DNA of 34,146 nucleotides from an uncultured Clostridia bacterium (GTDB lineage Bacteria > Bacillota > Clostridia > Peptostreptococcales > Anaerovoracaceae): positions 1-34,146 of the forward strand of contig CALZFA010000004.1 in NCBI GenBank assembly GCA_945644815.1. Reading direction: 5' to 3'. Every line of letters begins with the position of its first letter. Position 1 is the first letter of the stretch. The position numbers were made by a program, and so were the translations under genes. The notes under the pieces are model-generated. The model did not search any database. It was given only the letters and a program-made list of their open reading frames with translations, and was not told the DNA's origin. Below, one piece after another: positions 6 to 9,142 of this stretch.

Positions 6-770
6 TTAACCGAATCTTCCGGTGATATAGTCTTCCGTCCTCTTATCCTCAGGGAAGGAGAACAGCTTTTCTGTATCTGCATACTCGATAACCTCTCCCA
101 GAAGGAAAAAAGCGGTCTTGTCGGAAATCCTGGCAGCCTGCTGCATATTGTGGGTTACCATAACTATAGTATACTTGTTTTTAAGCTCCGCCGCAAGGTC
201 TTCGATCTTAGATGTGGAAATGGGGTCCAGGGCAGAAGTCGGTTCATCCATCAGAAGCACCTCCGGCTCCACGGCCAGAGCCCGAGCTATGCAAAGCCTC
301 TGCTGCTGTCCTCCCGAAAGTCCCATGGCACTGTCCTTAAGCCGGTCTTTGACCTCATCCCAGATGGCCGCCCCTCGAAGAGAATTCTCCACAATTTCAT
401 CAAGTCGCACCCTGCTGCGCACTCCATGGGTTCTGGGTCCGTACGCGATGTTGTCATAAATACTCATTGGAAATGGATTGGGTTTCTGGAACACCATTCC
501 TACCCGCTTTCTCAGATTATTTATGTCAACATCTCCGTAAATATTCTGTCCGTCAAGCCTGATGTCGCCGGTAATTCTGCATCCCTCCACCAGATCATTC
601 ATTCTGTTAAGTGACTTGAGGAGCGTGGATTTGCCGCAGCCGGAAGGACCGATAAAGGCAGTAATTCTGTTTTCGGGAATGTCCAGATTTATACCTTTAA
701 GTGCCTGAAAATCCCCGTAAAACAGATTCATATCATGTATTGTCATCTTATCCATTTTTCTTTTCTCCAT
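6..770 (-). CDS. pstB: Phosphate ABC transporter ATP-binding protein PstB
   Basis: Walker [10 protein letters not shown], signature LSGGQQQR, Walker [13 protein letters not shown]; lies downstream of pstA/pstC/pstS in the same orientation. Confidence 0.97.
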
Positions 771-806
771 ATGACCAAAATCCAGTAATAAACTCTATAT
801 GTCATA

Positions 807-1679
807 TTATTTGTTTGTAAGGCGCTTTGCCACTGCTGCCGAAAGAGCATTTATCAATATTACCACAACCAGCAGCACCACTGCCACGGCATAGGCCTGA
901 TCTGTGTACCTGCCCTCATTGAGCAAAGTATAAAGGTGCACGGAAAGGGTGCTCGCCGATGAAAACAGGCTCTTTGCCGCCACCGGGTTGGTTCCAGAAG
1001 TAAATATCAGCGCCGCCGATTCTCCCACAATCCTTCCTATTGCCAGAATTACTCCGGAGAGTATTCCCGGCACAGCAGACGGAAGAACGATTTTAAAAAC
1101 TGTCCGAAGTTTTCCCGCTCCCAGTCCGAAGCTTCCCTCCCGGAAAGAATCCGGAACGGCCATAAGGGCTTCCTCTGTGGTTCTCATTATTAACGGGAGT
1201 ATCATTATAGCCATGGTTATTACCCCGGAAAGGAGGGTGAAACTCCAGCCCAGAGTTATTACGAAGACTATATATCCGAAGAGTCCGTATACAATGGACG
1301 GAATTCCCGAAAGGGTTTCCGCCGTAATTCTGATGACCTTAACCAGCTTGTTTCCTCTCTTTGAATATTCCACCAAATATATAGCGGCAAAAGCTCCTAT
1401 GGGCACCGCCAAAAGCAGAGTCAGGACTATCATAATCAGCGTATTGATAATAGCCGGCATCATGGACTGGTTTTCTGCGTTGAAGTCCCATGCGAAAAGA
1501 CCCGGCAAAGTCAGATTTGGCACTCCGTGATAGAGTATATATCCTATGAGAAAAAGCACCACCCCCGCGGTTATCAGCGCGCTGAGGCACACCGCCGCAT
1601 AAATAATCAGCGACAGAGGCTGATGCCTGTAGTTTTTTATTTTTTGTCTCAAAGTCTGTCTGTTAATGTATTCCATCAT
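807..1679 (-). CDS. pstA: Phosphate ABC transporter permease PstA
   Basis: Multi-TM permease, IYLVEYSKRG, GIPSIVYGLFG, EEALMAVPDSFREGSFGLGAGKLRTVFKIVLPSA; 4-bp overlap with pstC. Confidence 0.96.
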   Translation of the reverse strand: MMEYINRQTLRQKIKNYRHQPLSLIIYAAVCLSALITAGVVLFLIGYILYHGVPNLTLPGLFAWDFNAENQSMMPAIINTLIMIVLTLLLAVPIGAFAAIYLVEYSKRGNKLVKVIRITAETLSGIPSIVYGLFGYIVFVITLGWSFTLLSGVITMAIMILPLIMRTTEEALMAVPDSFREGSFGLGAGKLRTVFKIVLPSAVPGILSGVILAIGRIVGESAALIFTSGTNPVAAKSLFSSASTLSVHLYTLLNEGRYTDQAYAVAVVLLVVVILINALSAAVAKRLTNK

Positions 1680-2524
1680 TTATTCCCCCTTTTCAGAAGA
1701 GAGAAAGAAATATTTATTATGAGTATAAATACGAAAAGCACCACTGCAGTGGCTATGAGTGCCTCCCTGTGAAGCCCCTCTGCATATCCCATCTCAATGA
1801 TTACATTGGCGGTCATGGTTCTCACTCCGGAAAGAATTGAGTCCGGCAGAATGGGCTGGTTTCCTGCCACCATTGAAACAGCCATGGTTTCTCCTATGGC
1901 TCTTCCTATGCCCAAGACCACTCCCGCCATTATGCCTGATTTTGCTGCGGGAAGGGTGGCAAAGAAAACACTTCGCTCGTGAGTTGCACCCAAAGCCAGT
2001 GAACCCTCATAATAACTTTCAGGTACAGCTCTGATGGCCGCCTCGGAAACGCTGACAATGGTGGGGAGAATCATTATTGCAAGCATTATGGATGCCGAGA
2101 GAATTCCCTTTCCGCTGGTTCCGGTGAGTGTCTGTACCACCGGCACAATAACCATCAAGGCGAAGAATCCGTAAACGATTGACGGTATTCCTGCCAGCAG
2201 ATCTACTGCCGGCTTCATTATTCTGTAAATACCGGATGGACAAAACTTTGCCATAAATACGGCGCAGAGAAGCCCAACCGGCACACCTATAATAATTGCT
2301 CCTGCTGTAACATAAATGCTGCCTACAATCATAGGGAAAATTCCGAATTGTCCTTCAAGAGGCTTCCATACCGTACCTGTCAGAAAATCGAGTACCCCTA
2401 TTTCCCCTATGGCAGGAAAACCCTGCTCAAAGAGAAAGAAGCATATTACTATGACTGCAAAAATTGATACTGTAGCCGACAACGTAAACACTAATTTCAT
2501 TGTTTTTTCAGAAAAAATGTTCAT
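1676..2524 (-). CDS. pstC: Phosphate ABC transporter permease PstC
   Basis: Multi-TM permease, GIPSIVYGFFALMVIVP, AIRAVPESYYEGSLALGATHERSVFFATLPAA. Confidence 0.96.
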   Translation of the reverse strand: MNIFSEKTMKLVFTLSATVSIFAVIVICFFLFEQGFPAIGEIGVLDFLTGTVWKPLEGQFGIFPMIVGSIYVTAGAIIIGVPVGLLCAVFMAKFCPSGIYRIMKPAVDLLAGIPSIVYGFFALMVIVPVVQTLTGTSGKGILSASIMLAIMILPTIVSVSEAAIRAVPESYYEGSLALGATHERSVFFATLPAAKSGIMAGVVLGIGRAIGETMAVSMVAGNQPILPDSILSGVRTMTANVIIEMGYAEGLHREALIATAVVLFVFILIINISFSLLKRGNK

Positions 2525-2572
2525 TTTTTTACCCGCCGTTTTTTTACCTGCTGATTCTTTATCCGCAATGCT

Positions 2573-3451
2573 TTACCACTCAGTCACTTCACCTGTAAAT
2601 ATCTGTCTGATCTGCTCTGAAGTCAGGTCTTCTGTCGTATTTTCCTTGTTTACTATAACCGCGATACCATCCATGGCAATGGTTTCTCCTTTCACACCCT
2701 TTGCCAGTTCTTCATCCTTCAGTTCTCTTGATGACATCCCCAGATTGACAGCCCCTTCAATAGTTGAGGTGATTCCTGCACCGGAACCTGTCTGCTGAAT
2801 TTCAATTTCAACCTCCGGATTAATAGCTTTATATGCATCAGCCAGCTTCTGCATTACAGGTGCTACCGATGTTGAACCGCCCACTGAAATTTTCCCTTTA
2901 AGGCCGCTTCTGGTTTCATATGCCTTAGCTTCGTTCTTTACAGAGATGCACCCGTCTTCTTCAATAATAGTCTGACCTTCCTTACTCATAATAAAGGCGA
3001 TAAAGTCTTTTGTAAGTTCATCTGTCTTCTTTCCCGTAACTACCAGGAAAGGTCTCGACACCGGATATACTCCTGCCTTAATGTTTTCTACTGTTGGTTC
3101 AACACCATCAACCTTTATTGCCTTTACTGAATCGTCCATGGACGCCAGAGAAATGTAACCGATGGCGTTTTTGTTCCCTGATACTGTTGCCATCACTACA
3201 GATGTGCTTTGTGAAATTTCTGCCTTTGGAGTAGTATTATCCACATCACCCGCCATGATTCCCATTAGTTCTGTAAATGCCCCTCTGGTGCCGGAACCAT
3301 CCTCTCTTGATACAACTGTTATGGGGTTGCCGCTCTGATCCTGTCCATTGGTCTTATTGCCTCCACAGGCTGTCATGGCAAATACCATGGTAAGAGCCAG
3401 TGCTGATGCCGCAATCTTCTTTATTCCGTTCATAATCTTATTCTTTTTCAT
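2573..3451 (-). CDS. pstS: Phosphate-binding lipoprotein PstS with permuted half order
   Basis: Lipoprotein signal (LTMVFAMTACGG) and PstS motifs SREDGSGTRGAF and GGSTSVAPVMQKLADAY; the usual C-terminal half precedes the usual N-terminal half. Confidence 0.93.
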   Translation of the reverse strand: MKKNKIMNGIKKIAASALALTMVFAMTACGGNKTNGQDQSGNPITVVSREDGSGTRGAFTELMGIMAGDVDNTTPKAEISQSTSVVMATVSGNKNAIGYISLASMDDSVKAIKVDGVEPTVENIKAGVYPVSRPFLVVTGKKTDELTKDFIAFIMSKEGQTIIEEDGCISVKNEAKAYETRSGLKGKISVGGSTSVAPVMQKLADAYKAINPEVEIEIQQTGSGAGITSTIEGAVNLGMSSRELKDEELAKGVKGETIAMDGIAVIVNKENTTEDLTSEQIRQIFTGEVTEW

Positions 3452-3828: not shown

Positions 3829-3860
3829 TAAAAAAACGCCACCCTGAGGCAGCGGTTTTC
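3829..3860 (-). terminator. Intrinsic terminator of the GTPase-NYN gene
   Basis: Minus strand CGCTGCC-TCAG-GGTGGCG followed by TTTTTTT (7-bp stem including two G-U pairs). Confidence 0.8.
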
Positions 3861-3901: not shown

Positions 3902-6607
3902 TTATTCTGTCAAAGCTTTCTCAAATGGCCTGTTTTTTTTCAGTTTGACTTTGCAATCCGACAATCTTGCTCGTATTTCCTCGGATACACCGGTAACTTC
4001 CGCATGGAATTCTCTTGCCGACATGCGGCGTGCGCCGTCTCCCAAGGCTGCCATCTGTACCGGTCTGTCCGATGTAACTACTGCCACATCGTATTTGCGC
4101 CCCATCTCATAAACAGTCTTTTCTATAAACCTGTCGGCTGTCTCCGCTTCCTTGGTATAGACTACCTTTATTTCTCCATAGTCCATCCTGGTGCCCGGAT
4201 TTCCGACCACCTTATATCCATCAAAAACCACCACCATGTCGGCTTTAGTATAGCCCTGGTAGTTTCCCAGAATATCCAGAAAAGCCTCTCTGGCCGAATC
4301 AAGGTTTACCGCAGCAAGCTCCTTAAGCTCATCCCAGGCAAAGATTACATTGTATCCGTCTATTACCAGGAAAGGCTGTCCATTGCCCGTCTCATGCTTC
4401 CATTTAGGCTGCGGAAAAGTATCAGATCTGCCTGCAGCTTTGGAGTGGGTAGCTTTGCTCAAAGCTTCTTTTCGCAGAGCTTCATCACGCTTGCTTTTGC
4501 CGTAGGTCCTTTCAAATATAGCCAGAAGTTCTTTTTCCCCTGCCGCAGAAAGCTTTTCTCTGTCTGTGTTGCTTCCGTCTTTGATGCCGTCTTGCAGCAG
4601 AGCTCCGCCATAAGTGCCTGTCCTGTCGCTCCGCCTGATGAAGTGCCCGTTCTCAATAATGTATCCGCTGTCCACATGAGCCATTTCATCAACCTGCTTC
4701 CAGTCCACATATTCTGCTGCGCCGCGGCTGCAGAACACAGAACCTGTAGGGTTTTCAAGATCTGCCTCAGGTACATAGGCGCTGTTCGCCACAACTTCAT
4801 CCGCATTATGGCAAGGCCTGAATCCGCACAAAGCAGCTTCAAACCTGCCCTCACCTTTTGTATATGCGCTTACTTCTCTCTGGTAGCCCTTAAGAGTGGC
4901 AACAGGTCCCTCTCCTTCAATAACGTTGTTCATCATTCCATCTATTTCCGGAAGGCCACAGGAAGCCCCCAATCTCTGCATGTCGGACATGGCTCTCCCC
5001 ACACAGTCCTGAGGCACCTTAAGAGAAAAGCTGTAGAAAGGTTCCAGCAGCACGCTTTTCGCCTTTCTGAGCCCCTGACGCACAGCCCTGTACGTGGCCT
5101 GCCTGAAATCTCCGCCTTCCGTGTGCTTGAGATGAGCCCTGCCTGCCAGTATGCTGATCTTCATATCGGTTATCTCCGAGCCGGTGAGCACGCCTGGAAA
5201 AGGTCTCTCCCCAAGGTGAGCAAGTATAAGACGCTGCCAGTTTCTGTCAAGGCTTTCTTCGCTGCACAGGCTGCCGATTACAAGTCCGCTTCCCGGAGGC
5301 AAAGGCTCCAGCAGCAGCTGGACCTCAGCATAGTGACGCAGGGGCTCGTAGTGACCTATACCGATTACGGGCTCTGCTATAGTCTCCTTATATATTATGC
5401 TGCTTTCGCCAAAGGAAACATCTTCGCCGAATCTGTCCTTTATGCGAGTTTTCAGAATTTCCTCCTCCAGCTCACCCATTATCTGAACATGGATTTCTTT
5501 AACTTCTTCTTTCCATAATACGCGCATAGTAGGGTCTTCTTCTTCAAGCTGCCGGAGTTTAGAAAGAAAAACCACAGGATCAGTGTCAGGTGACATGATT
5601 ATCCTCGACGTTATCGCGGGAAGAAGCAAGGGTTTTATGTCTTCACTTTGAGCTTCCTCTCCCAGGCCCTGTCCGGCATATGTCCCTGTCAGCCCTGTAA
5701 CTGCGCAGACGGTTCCCGCCTCTGCTTCACCGGTCATTGTAAAGCTGTCACCGGAATAAAGTCGTATCTGCTCTGCTTTTTCCTCTCTTCCGCCGCAGTT
5801 CAAAAGCATTTTGCTCCTGAGCCTTCCCCCCGTGATCCTCATGTGACTAAGCCTGTTTCCCTGCTTGTCCCTGCTGATCTTATATACTCTTGCTCCGAAC
5901 TCTTCGCTGTATTGTTTAGCCCGAGTATATCTGTCAAAACACCGGAGAAACTCTTTTACACCCTCCAGTTTAAGAGCGGAGCCGAAGATGACAGGAAACA
6001 GCTGTCTGCCCTCAACAGCATCGGTAATGGTTTTGTCACTGATACTTCCGCCATTGAGATATTCCTCCATAAGTTCCTCGCTTGCCATGGCTGTCTCATC
6101 CTCGTTTAGACTGCCGTCGGTCTTTGCTGTGGCAAAGCTGTCCCCAAAAGTATCTGTCAGTTCCTTCATCAGGTTTTCCCGGTCAGTCCCGGGCCTATCC
6201 ATTTTGTTTACAAATACAAAAACCGGCAGTCCTCGATCTTCCAGCAGCTTCCACAAAGTTCTGGTGTGGGCCTGAACACCGTCGGTGCCGCTTACCACCA
6301 ATACTGCATAATCCAGAACCTGCAATGTCCTCTCCATTTCAGCGCTGAAATCAGCGTGGCCCGGCGTATCCAGCAAAGTGACCTGCTTTTCTCCCAGCAC
6401 AAAACGAGCCTCCTTGGAAAATACGGTTATACCGCGGGCTCGTTCTACTTGTACGTTATCAAGAAAGGCATCTTTGTGATCAACCCTGCCCAGCTGCCTT
6501 ATGGCTCCTGTCAGGTACAGTATTGCCTCCGATAAGGTTGTCTTTCCTGCATCCACATGGGCTAATATGCCCATAGTCAGGGGGTTAGGTCTGTTGTCCT
6601 TCTTCAT
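3902..6607 (-). CDS. Tet(M)-like/EF-G-family translational GTPase fused to C-terminal Rae1/YacP-type NYN endonuclease domain
   Basis: GTPase motifs AHVDAGKTT, RGIT, DTPGH, NKMD with Tet(M)-like collinearity; the last ~157 aa (LVIDGYNVIFAW..NYQGYT..VVVFD..TKEAETADRFIEK..VVTSD..GARRMSARE) match the Rae1/YacP pattern. ORF track starts at TTG 6679; the ATG at 6607 looks more likely. Confidence 0.9.
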   Translation of the reverse strand: MKKDNRPNPLTMGILAHVDAGKTTLSEAILYLTGAIRQLGRVDHKDAFLDNVQVERARGITVFSKEARFVLGEKQVTLLDTPGHADFSAEMERTLQVLDYAVLVVSGTDGVQAHTRTLWKLLEDRGLPVFVFVNKMDRPGTDRENLMKELTDTFGDSFATAKTDGSLNEDETAMASEELMEEYLNGGSISDKTITDAVEGRQLFPVIFGSALKLEGVKEFLRCFDRYTRAKQYSEEFGARVYKISRDKQGNRLSHMRITGGRLRSKMLLNCGGREEKAEQIRLYSGDSFTMTGEAEAGTVCAVTGLTGTYAGQGLGEEAQSEDIKPLLLPAITSRIIMSPDTDPVVFLSKLRQLEEEDPTMRVLWKEEVKEIHVQIMGELEEEILKTRIKDRFGEDVSFGESSIIYKETIAEPVIGIGHYEPLRHYAEVQLLLEPLPPGSGLVIGSLCSEESLDRNWQRLILAHLGERPFPGVLTGSEITDMKISILAGRAHLKHTEGGDFRQATYRAVRQGLRKAKSVLLEPFYSFSLKVPQDCVGRAMSDMQRLGASCGLPEIDGMMNNVIEGEGPVATLKGYQREVSAYTKGEGRFEAALCGFRPCHNADEVVANSAYVPEADLENPTGSVFCSRGAAEYVDWKQVDEMAHVDSGYIIENGHFIRRSDRTGTYGGALLQDGIKDGSNTDREKLSAAGEKELLAIFERTYGKSKRDEALRKEALSKATHSKAAGRSDTFPQPKWKHETGNGQPFLVIDGYNVIFAWDELKELAAVNLDSAREAFLDILGNYQGYTKADMVVVFDGYKVVGNPGTRMDYGEIKVVYTKEAETADRFIEKTVYEMGRKYDVAVVTSDRPVQMAALGDGARRMSAREFHAEVTGVSEEIRARLSDCKVKLKKNRPFEKALTE

Positions 6608-6741
6608 AATTTGTATTATATATAAAAAAACATAAAAAGTCGACCCGATTTTTATCTTATTGCCCATGTTGGTGTGCAATTCAGGCTTTGTTTTGGTGTC
6701 TTATCCGCAGAAGTAAACCTATATTTTCTATTTGCAATGGT

Positions 6742-8142
6742 TTATAATTCCCTGATCTTATCCGCCAGCCTTTCGGCATCTTCCCGACTATGAGTGATGA
6801 GGATTACAGTCCTGCCCTCGGTCTCACGCTTCCACAGTCTGTCAATAATTCTATCCTTCAGAGAACCATCCAGTCCACGGAAAGGCTCATCCAATATCAC
6901 CAGCGCTCCACCTGCAGCAAAGGTTCTCGCCAAAGCAGCTCTATGACGCTGACCCCCGGACAATTCACCGGGAAGTTTCCAAAGCTCAGTTTCGATTTCG
7001 AGCTGTCCTGCCAGATCCCTGATTCTTTCCGCATTTCCACCGCCTATGGCGATATTATCATAAATATTCAGCCAGGGCAGCAATCTGTCCTCCTGAAACA
7101 GAAAAGAAATCTTCCCCGCAAAAGCTTCTGTTTTCCCTATCGCCATTTTCCCTTCATCCTCAATGAAAACTCTTCCCGACTCTGCAGCTTCAAGCCCTGC
7201 GATAATTCGTGCGAGGGTAGTTTTGCCCTGACCTGAAGATCCCATGAGTGCCGTAACTTTTCCGGCCTCAAAGGTCATGTTCACATCGTCTAATACCCTT
7301 TTACCCTCAAAGGCCTTGGTCAAATGAGACACCTCAATGCCGGTTGCAGCCGGCTGCTGCGGCAAGTTTTTGACACCGTGAGCATGGAGTCTGCTGCCCT
7401 CATATCCTTTCCATTCAATGCGTCTCATACCAAGGTTTATCAGTTTCTCAAAGGCCATGCTGAGTACTACGATTACAAAAATATACGCAAATAGATCAGC
7501 TGTCTCCAGATAATACTTCGCGTTTATCATTTCATAGCCCAGAGAATATTTCGGTATTGAAAGTACTTCTGCAGCCACTACCGCCTTCCAGCTGAGTCCT
7601 GCAGTGAGACTGATTGCCGCCTTTATTTGCGGCAAAAGGCCGGGACCGTAAATATACTTCACGATTTCGCCTCTGCTCAGGCGACATATTTTTCCCACTT
7701 CCGGGTACGCTGAAGGCATGGCGTCCAGCCCTTCCAGAATATTGGTGTATACTATAGGAAAACACATAAAAAAGCACACTGTTACCGCAACCCAGTCGGA
7801 TTCTGCCAGCAATATAACATAGATTATGATGGCCATGACGGGGACAGCTTTAAAAAATCCCACAGGCAGGCTCAAAATGTTTCTAACCTCATCATACCTG
7901 AAGGAGAGAGCCGCCGCCGGAATTCCCGCTGCAAAAGAAACGGCCATTGCAACAAGGCACCTTGCCGCAGTCCAACCTATGTCCATATAAAATTTACTCG
8001 TACCGGCCAACGCTGTCAGAGCAAAAAAAGCATCCGCAGGGTCCGGCAGCAGCAGCTTGTTTGAAACCAGCAGCGCTGCTGCCTGCCACACTGCCAGCCA
8101 AAACATGGCGGTAATAAATTTACTGTATTTTTTATTTCGCAT
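6742..8142 (-). CDS. Fused ABC transporter: SsuC-type permease + SsuB-type ATPase
   Basis: N-terminal half is a multi-TM binding-protein-dependent permease; C-terminal half has Walker A GSSGQGKTT, LSGGQRHRAALARTF, LVILDEPFRGLD. Confidence 0.9.
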   Translation of the reverse strand: MRNKKYSKFITAMFWLAVWQAAALLVSNKLLLPDPADAFFALTALAGTSKFYMDIGWTAARCLVAMAVSFAAGIPAAALSFRYDEVRNILSLPVGFFKAVPVMAIIIYVILLAESDWVAVTVCFFMCFPIVYTNILEGLDAMPSAYPEVGKICRLSRGEIVKYIYGPGLLPQIKAAISLTAGLSWKAVVAAEVLSIPKYSLGYEMINAKYYLETADLFAYIFVIVVLSMAFEKLINLGMRRIEWKGYEGSRLHAHGVKNLPQQPAATGIEVSHLTKAFEGKRVLDDVNMTFEAGKVTALMGSSGQGKTTLARIIAGLEAAESGRVFIEDEGKMAIGKTEAFAGKISFLFQEDRLLPWLNIYDNIAIGGGNAERIRDLAGQLEIETELWKLPGELSGGQRHRAALARTFAAGGALVILDEPFRGLDGSLKDRIIDRLWKRETEGRTVILITHSREDAERLADKIREL

Positions 8143-9142
8143 AATATAAATCGTCTGCCGGCAGTTTGCCTCCCACCGCCTGAGGGTTCATTTCAAACAA
8201 AGTCTCATTAAATATTCTGAGGATTTCGTTGCCCTCCTCAACCTTATTTCCTGTATAGAGCACAATATGACAATTAGGAATTGCAGCCTCAGCGATTTCA
8301 ATCTTCCCGATAAAGCCCTTTTCCACTATGATCTGAGCCGCTTCTTCAGGCACCCCGTTTACGAAATCAACGGATTCCCGCAGATCACTTAAAAGCACCC
8401 TAAGGTCATCGGTCCTTTCTTCCACAAAGGCCTTGCGTGCAACCAGCACTCCCATAGGCAGCTCCTGTCCTGTAGCATCTTTCCACAGGGTGTTCATGTC
8501 GAATACCTCTGCAACGCCTTCTTTGCCTGCGGCAAGAGCCGTTGATACAAACGGTTCAGGAATCATGGCGATGGTGCCTTCTTCACTGAGGAGCCTGGTA
8601 TTTACTTCTGAATGATTTGCAAGCCACTCCACCTGTACATCTTCGTAGAGCTTAAGGCCTGCGTCCTCTAAGACCTTCTGCAGCACATACTCCGGTGTGC
8701 CTCCCTGTCCGCTGGCAACGACGGTGCTGCCTTTAAGCTGAGAAACCTCTGCGACCTGGATATTGTTTCCAAGAATATGAAGTACTCCCAAAGCAATCGG
8801 GCTTATGGCTGTCACCTGTCCCTCCGTCTTATTGTAAAGCACTGCCGCCATGTTTGACGGAAGTGCAGCCACGTCAACCTCGCCCTTTACCAGCTTTGCC
8901 GTAATATCTGTAGGGCTTTGATACGTTTCCACTGCATATTTGTCAGTCATATCCATAAGCTGCACCATACCCATACCCGTCGGGCCGTTGAGAGCAGCCA
9001 CATTCACCGTTTTGCTTACCGTATCCGGCACATGGCTGTCATCGCCGCCGCAGCCTGTCAGCACCGCAAAAGTCATGAACACGGCAAGAACCGCTGCCGT
9101 AAGTCTTATGATGCCTCTCTCCTGAATTTTTCTTTTCTCCAT
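8132..9142 (-). CDS. ABC transporter substrate-binding lipoprotein, NMT1/SsuA-like
   Basis: Lipobox LTGCGG, NGPTGMGMVQLM, KGEVDVAALPSNMAAVLYNK; start region overlaps the fused permease-ATPase gene. Confidence 0.88.
   Translation of the reverse strand: MEKRKIQERGIIRLTAAVLAVFMTFAVLTGCGGDDSHVPDTVSKTVNVAALNGPTGMGMVQLMDMTDKYAVETYQSPTDITAKLVKGEVDVAALPSNMAAVLYNKTEGQVTAISPIALGVLHILGNNIQVAEVSQLKGSTVVASGQGGTPEYVLQKVLEDAGLKLYEDVQVEWLANHSEVNTRLLSEEGTIAMIPEPFVSTALAAGKEGVAEVFDMNTLWKDATGQELPMGVLVARKAFVEERTDDLRVLLSDLRESVDFVNGVPEEAAQIIVEKGFIGKIEIAEAAIPNCHIVLYTGNKVEEGNEILRIFNETLFEMNPQAVGGKLPADDLYYAK

Follow-up and report, generated by a model that had tools for sequence, protein, structure and literature searches.

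A translational GTPase fused to a Rae1-type nuclease appears to take the place of stand-alone Rae1 in Clostridia

A single gene at 3902–6607 (minus strand) of the 34,146-nt stretch of Clostridia DNA analyzed here (the window) codes for a 901-aa protein in which a translational GTPase is followed by a linker and a Rae1-type NYN nuclease. The GTPase and the nuclease both look intact from their sequences, and, as its distribution shows, the fusion stands in for a separate rae1 gene. Rae1 is a ribosome-dependent A-site mRNA endonuclease (PMC10100781, PMC12320835, PMC6613710). The explanation that we consider best, to which we give about an even chance, is that the fusion is a GTPase-docked Rae1 cutting mRNA on stalled ribosomes, that is, a dedicated chromosomal ribosome factor encoded by one gene.

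The 901-codon frame, counted from the ATG at 6607, contains no internal stop. The original prediction of a GTPase-Rae1 fusion in one open reading frame was borne out, the same uninterrupted arrangement being found in independent genomes, and Pfam searches recovered all the domains that it implied. On the minus strand, these are the G domain (GTP_EFTU, 2.6e-53; residues 11–228, 5924–6577), containing the motifs AHVDAGKTT, RGIT, DTPGH and NKMD; EF-G domains II (EF-G_D2; residues 237–311, 5675–5899), III (EFG_III; residues 341–400, 5408–5587), IV (EFG_IV; residues 404–517, 5057–5398) and V (EFG_C; residues 519–601, 4805–5053); and the nuclease (NYN_YacP, 9.5e-45; residues 747–891, 3935–4369), which scored 153 bits vs. 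a Pfam cut-off of 24.6. The full set of GTPase motifs already noticed is conserved, with residues K22, T23, T61, D80, H84, K135 and D137 invariant in 56 homologs and N134 present in 55 of them. Domain IV is the best-conserved domain of the whole fusion protein, and its tip loop III (residues 489–503, 5099–5143, minus strand) contains GRAHLKHTEGGDFRQ in place of the GLYYSPVSTPADFR of Tet(M).

Domain V is followed by an extension (residues 602–646, 4670–4804, minus strand; PCHN...SVFC.HGA...W..V..MAH), that is common to the fusion and to its nuclease-free sisters and is absent from Tet(M/O/W/S). The linker to the nuclease (residues 647–744, 4376–4669, minus strand) is mostly predicted to be disordered. 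It includes a motif, KELxxIFxRTYG (about residues 690–704, 4496–4540), recognizable in 38 of the 56 fused proteins and with variable surroundings. Across the fused forms, the linker between extension and nuclease spans 64–137 residues (median about 80), a length that would in principle let the nuclease move on the ribosome. The full-length structure model (mean pLDDT 84) has a pTM of 0.62 and disordered stretches at residues 665–690 and 716–742 of the linker, so that the placement of its domains, including the position of the nuclease, is not informative; the Foldseek matches shown for this model are EF-G-type structures.

When the last 157 residues were compared by sequence with solved structures, Rae1 from Bacillus subtilis (5mq8/5mq9) was the first match (2.3e-23). 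Four acidic positions, D750, D796, D825 and D847 (codons at 4358–4360, 4220–4222, 4133–4135 and 4067–4069, minus strand), align with D7, D53, D81 and D104 of Rae1 and are Asp in all 56 homologs. Additionally, a model of the nuclease (pLDDT 89) had the Rae1 structures 5mq8 and 5mq9 as its sole fold matches below an E value of 0.001, superposing on 5mq9_B with a TM score of 0.78 and 1.6 Å over 143 columns. These results agree with the Rae1/YacP identity and the four acidic positions originally proposed for this domain. Nevertheless, the fusion does not correspond to Rae1/YacP in the sense of a stand-alone protein of ~170 aa encoded in the order rlmB-rae1-sigH, because it is fused, is located elsewhere and leaves that slot empty in its own genome.

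The fused and stand-alone nucleases also differ at their ends: a basic C-terminal tail (LEKWRR or similar) occurs in 44 of 47 stand-alone Rae1 proteins vs. 1 of 119 fused forms, and 56 of these 119 terminate at or before position 160. The lost tail contains W164 and R166; structure 5mq9 is that of the W164L mutant, which affects a tail residue, and R166P was isolated in B. subtilis among suppressors that include rae1 loss-of-function alleles (PMC6613710). This leads us to infer that Rae1 is assisted by its tail at the ribosome, a task that the GTPase would have taken over in the fused forms. Loss of the tail may predate the fusion, because the basic tail is also missing from L126, a fused-type nuclease that stands alone and whose genome encodes the GTPase separately, without a nuclease.

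In a sequence search of solved structures with the whole protein, Tet(O), Tet(M) and EF-G were at the top, and the five EF-G-like domains with intact GTPase motifs expected of a tetracycline protection protein are all present. Membership in this protein family was, however, rejected on the basis of the score with the curated profile, the position in the tree and the tip of domain IV. Profile NF012153 (NCBIfam) yielded 389.4 bits, about half of its cut-off of 775. In a tree rooted with EF-G, Tet(M/O/W/S) and L215, a protein taken as TetB(P)-like for its identity of about 80% with annotated TetB(P), lie across a branch from the fusion GTPase with a support of 100/96–97. The Tet tip SP[VA]STPADFR is absent from domain IV of the fusion, in which tip loop III reads GRAHLKHTEGGDFR, with H492 and K494-Q503 identical in the 56 aligned fused proteins. 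The position of Tet(M) Pro509, the residue overlapping or clashing with bound tetracycline (PMC7456112), corresponds to Lys494 in the fusion, and is Lys in 56 of 56. The loop has the same length as that of EF-G, and His492 is situated at the position of the EF-G tip His (GSYHDVDS). The designation Tet(M)-like in the original prediction is valid for the fold, and not for family membership.

The subfamily shows a nearly invariant tip signature, H-x-K-H-T-E-G-G-D-F-R. The divergent fused members L158 (genome G425) and L159 (genome G589) have altered tips (HNKYTDEIALQE and HNKYTDGTALKE, respectively) and represent natural tip variants.

Similar fusions in other Clostridia, previously only suspected, proved to be widespread, with many carriers among those of the gut and rumen. 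Every one of the best 80 loci in the genome collection codes for a protein related to the query, with 81% identity at most; the hosts are Clostridia, including Faecalibacterium, Coprococcus, Gemmiger, Oscillibacter and Lachnospiraceae. At 78 of these loci, a single unbroken frame of at least about 860 codons contains both parts; of the remaining two, one is truncated by a contig end and the other is frame-broken. One frame likewise holds GTPase and nuclease in five genomes of the same genus, and 40 matching close relatives carry exactly one copy each. About half of the genomes in the window's own family carry neither form, and Rae1-type function is therefore dispensable. A complete 856-aa GTPase-NYN fusion was also found in a record from human feces designated 'UNVERIFIED Bacteriophage sp.' (L141; MT835514.1, 1862–4429), which is more probably bacterial DNA misassigned to a phage than a true phage gene.

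Fused and stand-alone forms rarely coincide. The YacP domain occurs in 190 of 289 genomes of a class-wide sample. Among the matches listed, 149 genomes included 83 with only the fused form, 57 with only the stand-alone form and one, G331, with both, while eight had partial frames of 295–734 aa that fall outside these classes; by families, also among the matches listed, 16 had the fused form alone, 19 the stand-alone form alone and 6 a mixture. Genomes G174, G227 and G258 were discarded as double genomes, their second matches being fragments below the cut-off.

A position next to rlmB and/or sigH was seen for nearly all genuine stand-alone rae1 loci of the kinship and class samples (exceptions are L126, L183 and L185), whereas rlmB was found at none of the 80 fused loci and a sigH-type match only at L107. 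The window's own genome has rlmB (contig C24) directly overlapping sigH, which leaves no gene between them, and the same overlap without rae1 occurs in G082, G007, G016 and G009; G331, carrying both forms, keeps the order rlmB-rae1-sigH. This indicates that the rae1 slot was vacated where the fusion is present. Concerning the original question of a separate copy, a stand-alone rae1 was not found in the window's own genome, an 85.8% complete draft in which the usual rlmB/sigH slot was seen and is empty. As judged from gene content and order, the fusion thus takes the place of a separate rae1 gene. Both the exclusivity and the co-occurrence, which are partly inherited within families, also fit a mere move of the gene that left the two activities uncoupled.

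A maximum-likelihood tree was built from 113 NYN domains. Every fused domain, together with the stand-alone L126, was on one side of a branch with a support of 99/94, and two changes between the labels fused and stand-alone suffice to explain the tree, which supports that the fusion arose essentially once. Two other proteins in the fused clade that seemed to stand alone, L016 and L137, proved to be fusions truncated by contig ends. The fused-type NYN domain of L126 (genome G259) is located outside rlmB-sigH, and the GTPase of the same genome (L212) is a separate protein without a nuclease that groups with the unfused sisters in the tree. This pair may be a relic of a two-gene state preceding the fusion, or the result of a later split.

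The nuclease-free sisters, of 640–674 aa, share the tip signature and the post-domain-V extension and are found in other Bacillota genomes and in megaplasmids of Ligilactobacillus salivarius. A stand-alone rae1 was present in seven of the nine genomes counted with a tip-bearing or basal nuclease-free GTPase (G652, G535, G639, G556, G613, G660, G259, G337 and G323); from the class-wide sample, these included G259, G323 and G337. The pairing of a nuclease-free GTPase with a separate rae1 fits with shared work. Conversely, five of eight checked genomes with stand-alone rae1 had no such GTPase, so that Rae1 is not generally dependent on it. The nuclease-free protein from L. salivarius (L140) branches inside the fused clade, which suggests a later loss of the nuclease.

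L140 is encoded at 5992–7911 of NZ_CP089851.1, and about 30 further L. salivarius megaplasmid records contain a nuclease-free member. Proteins of this type are named as TetM/TetW/TetO/TetS family, have the tip HTVGGDFRQ, without the Tet tip, and score about half of the profile cut-off; their annotation as resistance genes is a probable misannotation.

A sigma-70-like promoter match (TCGACT-17-TATAAT; 6615–6643, minus strand) is situated just upstream of the fusion gene, and a terminator-like stem-loop with a T run (3837–3854, minus strand) directly after its stop codon. Both are consensus matches only, and they suggest a single-gene unit. Since the TATAAT ends only 8 bases before ATG 6607, this start is not certain; there is no clear ribosome-binding site (6607–6643), the frame stays open upstream as far as TTG 6679, and the transcript may be leaderless or translation may begin further on, e.g., at Met12. 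The gap downstream of the gene also contains an imperfect 37-nt inverted repeat (3668–3704/3741–3777, 78%) with arms separated by 36 nt.

Its neighbors in the window comprise a phosphate-type ABC transporter set (about 6–3451) and a permease and an ATPase joined in one 466-aa frame (BPD_transp_1 and ABC_tran; 6742–8142, minus strand), which adjoins a gene for an NMT1-like binding protein (8132–9142). A search for a conserved neighborhood at the 80 fused loci identified generic ABC transporters in 25, any other neighbor in at most 6, and no mobile context. Because its neighbors are not conserved across relatives, the fusion gene probably acts alone. A role in anti-phage defense was rejected, since no PADLOC model matched.

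In the mechanism that we propose, the Rae1-type nuclease would be brought to the ribosome by a dedicated translational GTPase, and not by its own C-terminal tail. Going by its EF-G/Tet fold, the GTPase part would bind 70S ribosomes with a free A site, and the subfamily-specific tip of domain IV would read the state of the decoding site, not expel tetracycline. Domain IV and Rae1 are expected to occupy the same A-site space, and for this reason the tethered nuclease would act once GTP has been hydrolyzed and domain IV has withdrawn, or else at the mRNA entry side. The cut might leave a truncated mRNA for rescue by tmRNA, which is present in the window's own genome; this step and the preceding one are the least certain. 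The genetics fit a putative GTP-driven delivery or gating of cleavage. A more ambitious version, which we hold only tentatively, is that of a GTP-timed, single-chain quality-control factor: the tip would sense the stall, GTP hydrolysis would hand the A site to Rae1, and the cut would commit the ribosome to rescue. In a large part of the gut Clostridia, such a factor would have supplanted free Rae1, and it would be the first translational GTPase with a built-in mRNase.

The main rival to a docked Rae1 is that Rae1 was merely joined to a housekeeping-type GTPase, both keeping their old jobs, with GTP hydrolysis not controlling cleavage and the fusion providing only proximity. The long, disordered and poorly conserved linker, the occurrence of both nuclease-free GTPases and GTPase-free genomes with rae1, and the apparent later loss of the nuclease in L140 all speak for such a relocation; but essentially one fusion has been kept in at least 16 families with undecayed active sites, and almost none of the fused forms retains the Rae1 tail, as might be expected if the GTPase had assumed its task. 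We regard this alternative as rather unlikely. An artifact, through a frameshift or an assembly join of two genes, might be feared for a window from a fragmented draft of 136 contigs. It is refuted by independent genomes with the same fused frame, comprising genomes of the same genus, 78 of 80 public loci, cultured isolates among them, and complete single-contig genomes, and we give it practically no credence.

The remaining alternatives concern function. Ten Clostridiales species were reported, in one sentence of Atkinson 2015 (PMC4342817), to have Tet proteins with an acquired YacP-like NYN RNase domain, and a new mechanism of antibiotic resistance was proposed there for these Tet-YacP proteins; the fusion would then be a protection protein against tetracycline, or another A-site drug, with an added nuclease. 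The EF-G/Tet fold, the top PDB sequence matches to Tet(O) and Tet(M), and the TetM/TetW/TetO/TetS names given by NCBI to some nuclease-free relatives are in line with this proposal. We nevertheless deem it improbable, given a profile score of 389 vs. 775 bits, a GTPase that branches outside Tet(M/O/W/S) and TetB(P), the lack of SPVSTPADFR, with Lys in 56 of 56 proteins at the Pro509 position, and a neighborhood that is neither conserved nor mobile; moreover, only 2 of 1,237 matching plasmid records cover at least 80% of the query. Still less probable, to the point of being far-fetched, is a role in rRNA or tRNA maturation, with the YacP domain trimming stable RNA on ribosomal particles brought by the GTPase. 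It follows a prediction for NYN domains, earlier than the work on Rae1, that is cited in the same article (PMC4342817), and stand-alone rae1 does adjoin rlmB, an rRNA methyltransferase gene; however, the characterized member is a translation-dependent mRNA endonuclease, and the fused domain retains its active site.

The fusion architecture itself is not new, having been in print since 2015, and Rae1 was characterized as an A-site mRNA endonuclease only afterwards. A literature search, which did not reach the main Rae1 papers, found no experimental or functional study of the fusion. What is new here is the mutual exclusion of fused and stand-alone rae1, the vacated rlmB-sigH slot, the single fusion, the non-Tet GTPase with its own tip, the nuclease-free sisters and the loss of the tail. 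Taken together, the sequence data make a GTP-driven, mRNA-cutting ribosome factor plausible. A fusion replacing the free enzyme names a likely partner of Rae1, a GTPase of the EF-G/Tet fold, and one purified chain would allow docking, GTP use and cutting to be separated by point mutations. Also, because relatives without the drug-displacing tip carry tetracycline-protection labels, surveys of resistance in the gut may overcount them.

Among known systems, the closest are the Tet-YacP fusions of Atkinson 2015 (PMC4342817), which are likewise Tet/EF-G-like GTPases of Clostridiales with a C-terminal YacP-like NYN RNase domain; the sentence devoted to them records their existence, filed under Tet, and does not deal with a single origin, rae1 replacement, tip divergence or nuclease-free sisters. 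Rae1/YacP of B. subtilis shares the NYN fold and the four Asp residues with the fused nuclease, which differs in its linkage to a GTPase, in its location outside rlmB-sigH and in the absence of the C-terminal LEKWRR tail. The nuclease-free proteins annotated as 'translation factor GTPase family' (from L. salivarius megaplasmids, G652, G535 and G337) have the tip signature, the extension SVFC/SIFC..G..V.W and 37–44% identity to the fusion, but neither linker nor NYN domain, and rae1 is usually elsewhere in the genome. Finally, Tet(M), Tet(O), Tet(W), Tet(S) and TetB(P) resemble the fusion as five-domain, EF-G-like GTPases with ~28–30% identity over residues 3–598, whereas the fusion forms a separate clade with another tip, a post-domain-V extension, an added nuclease and a mostly chromosomal location.
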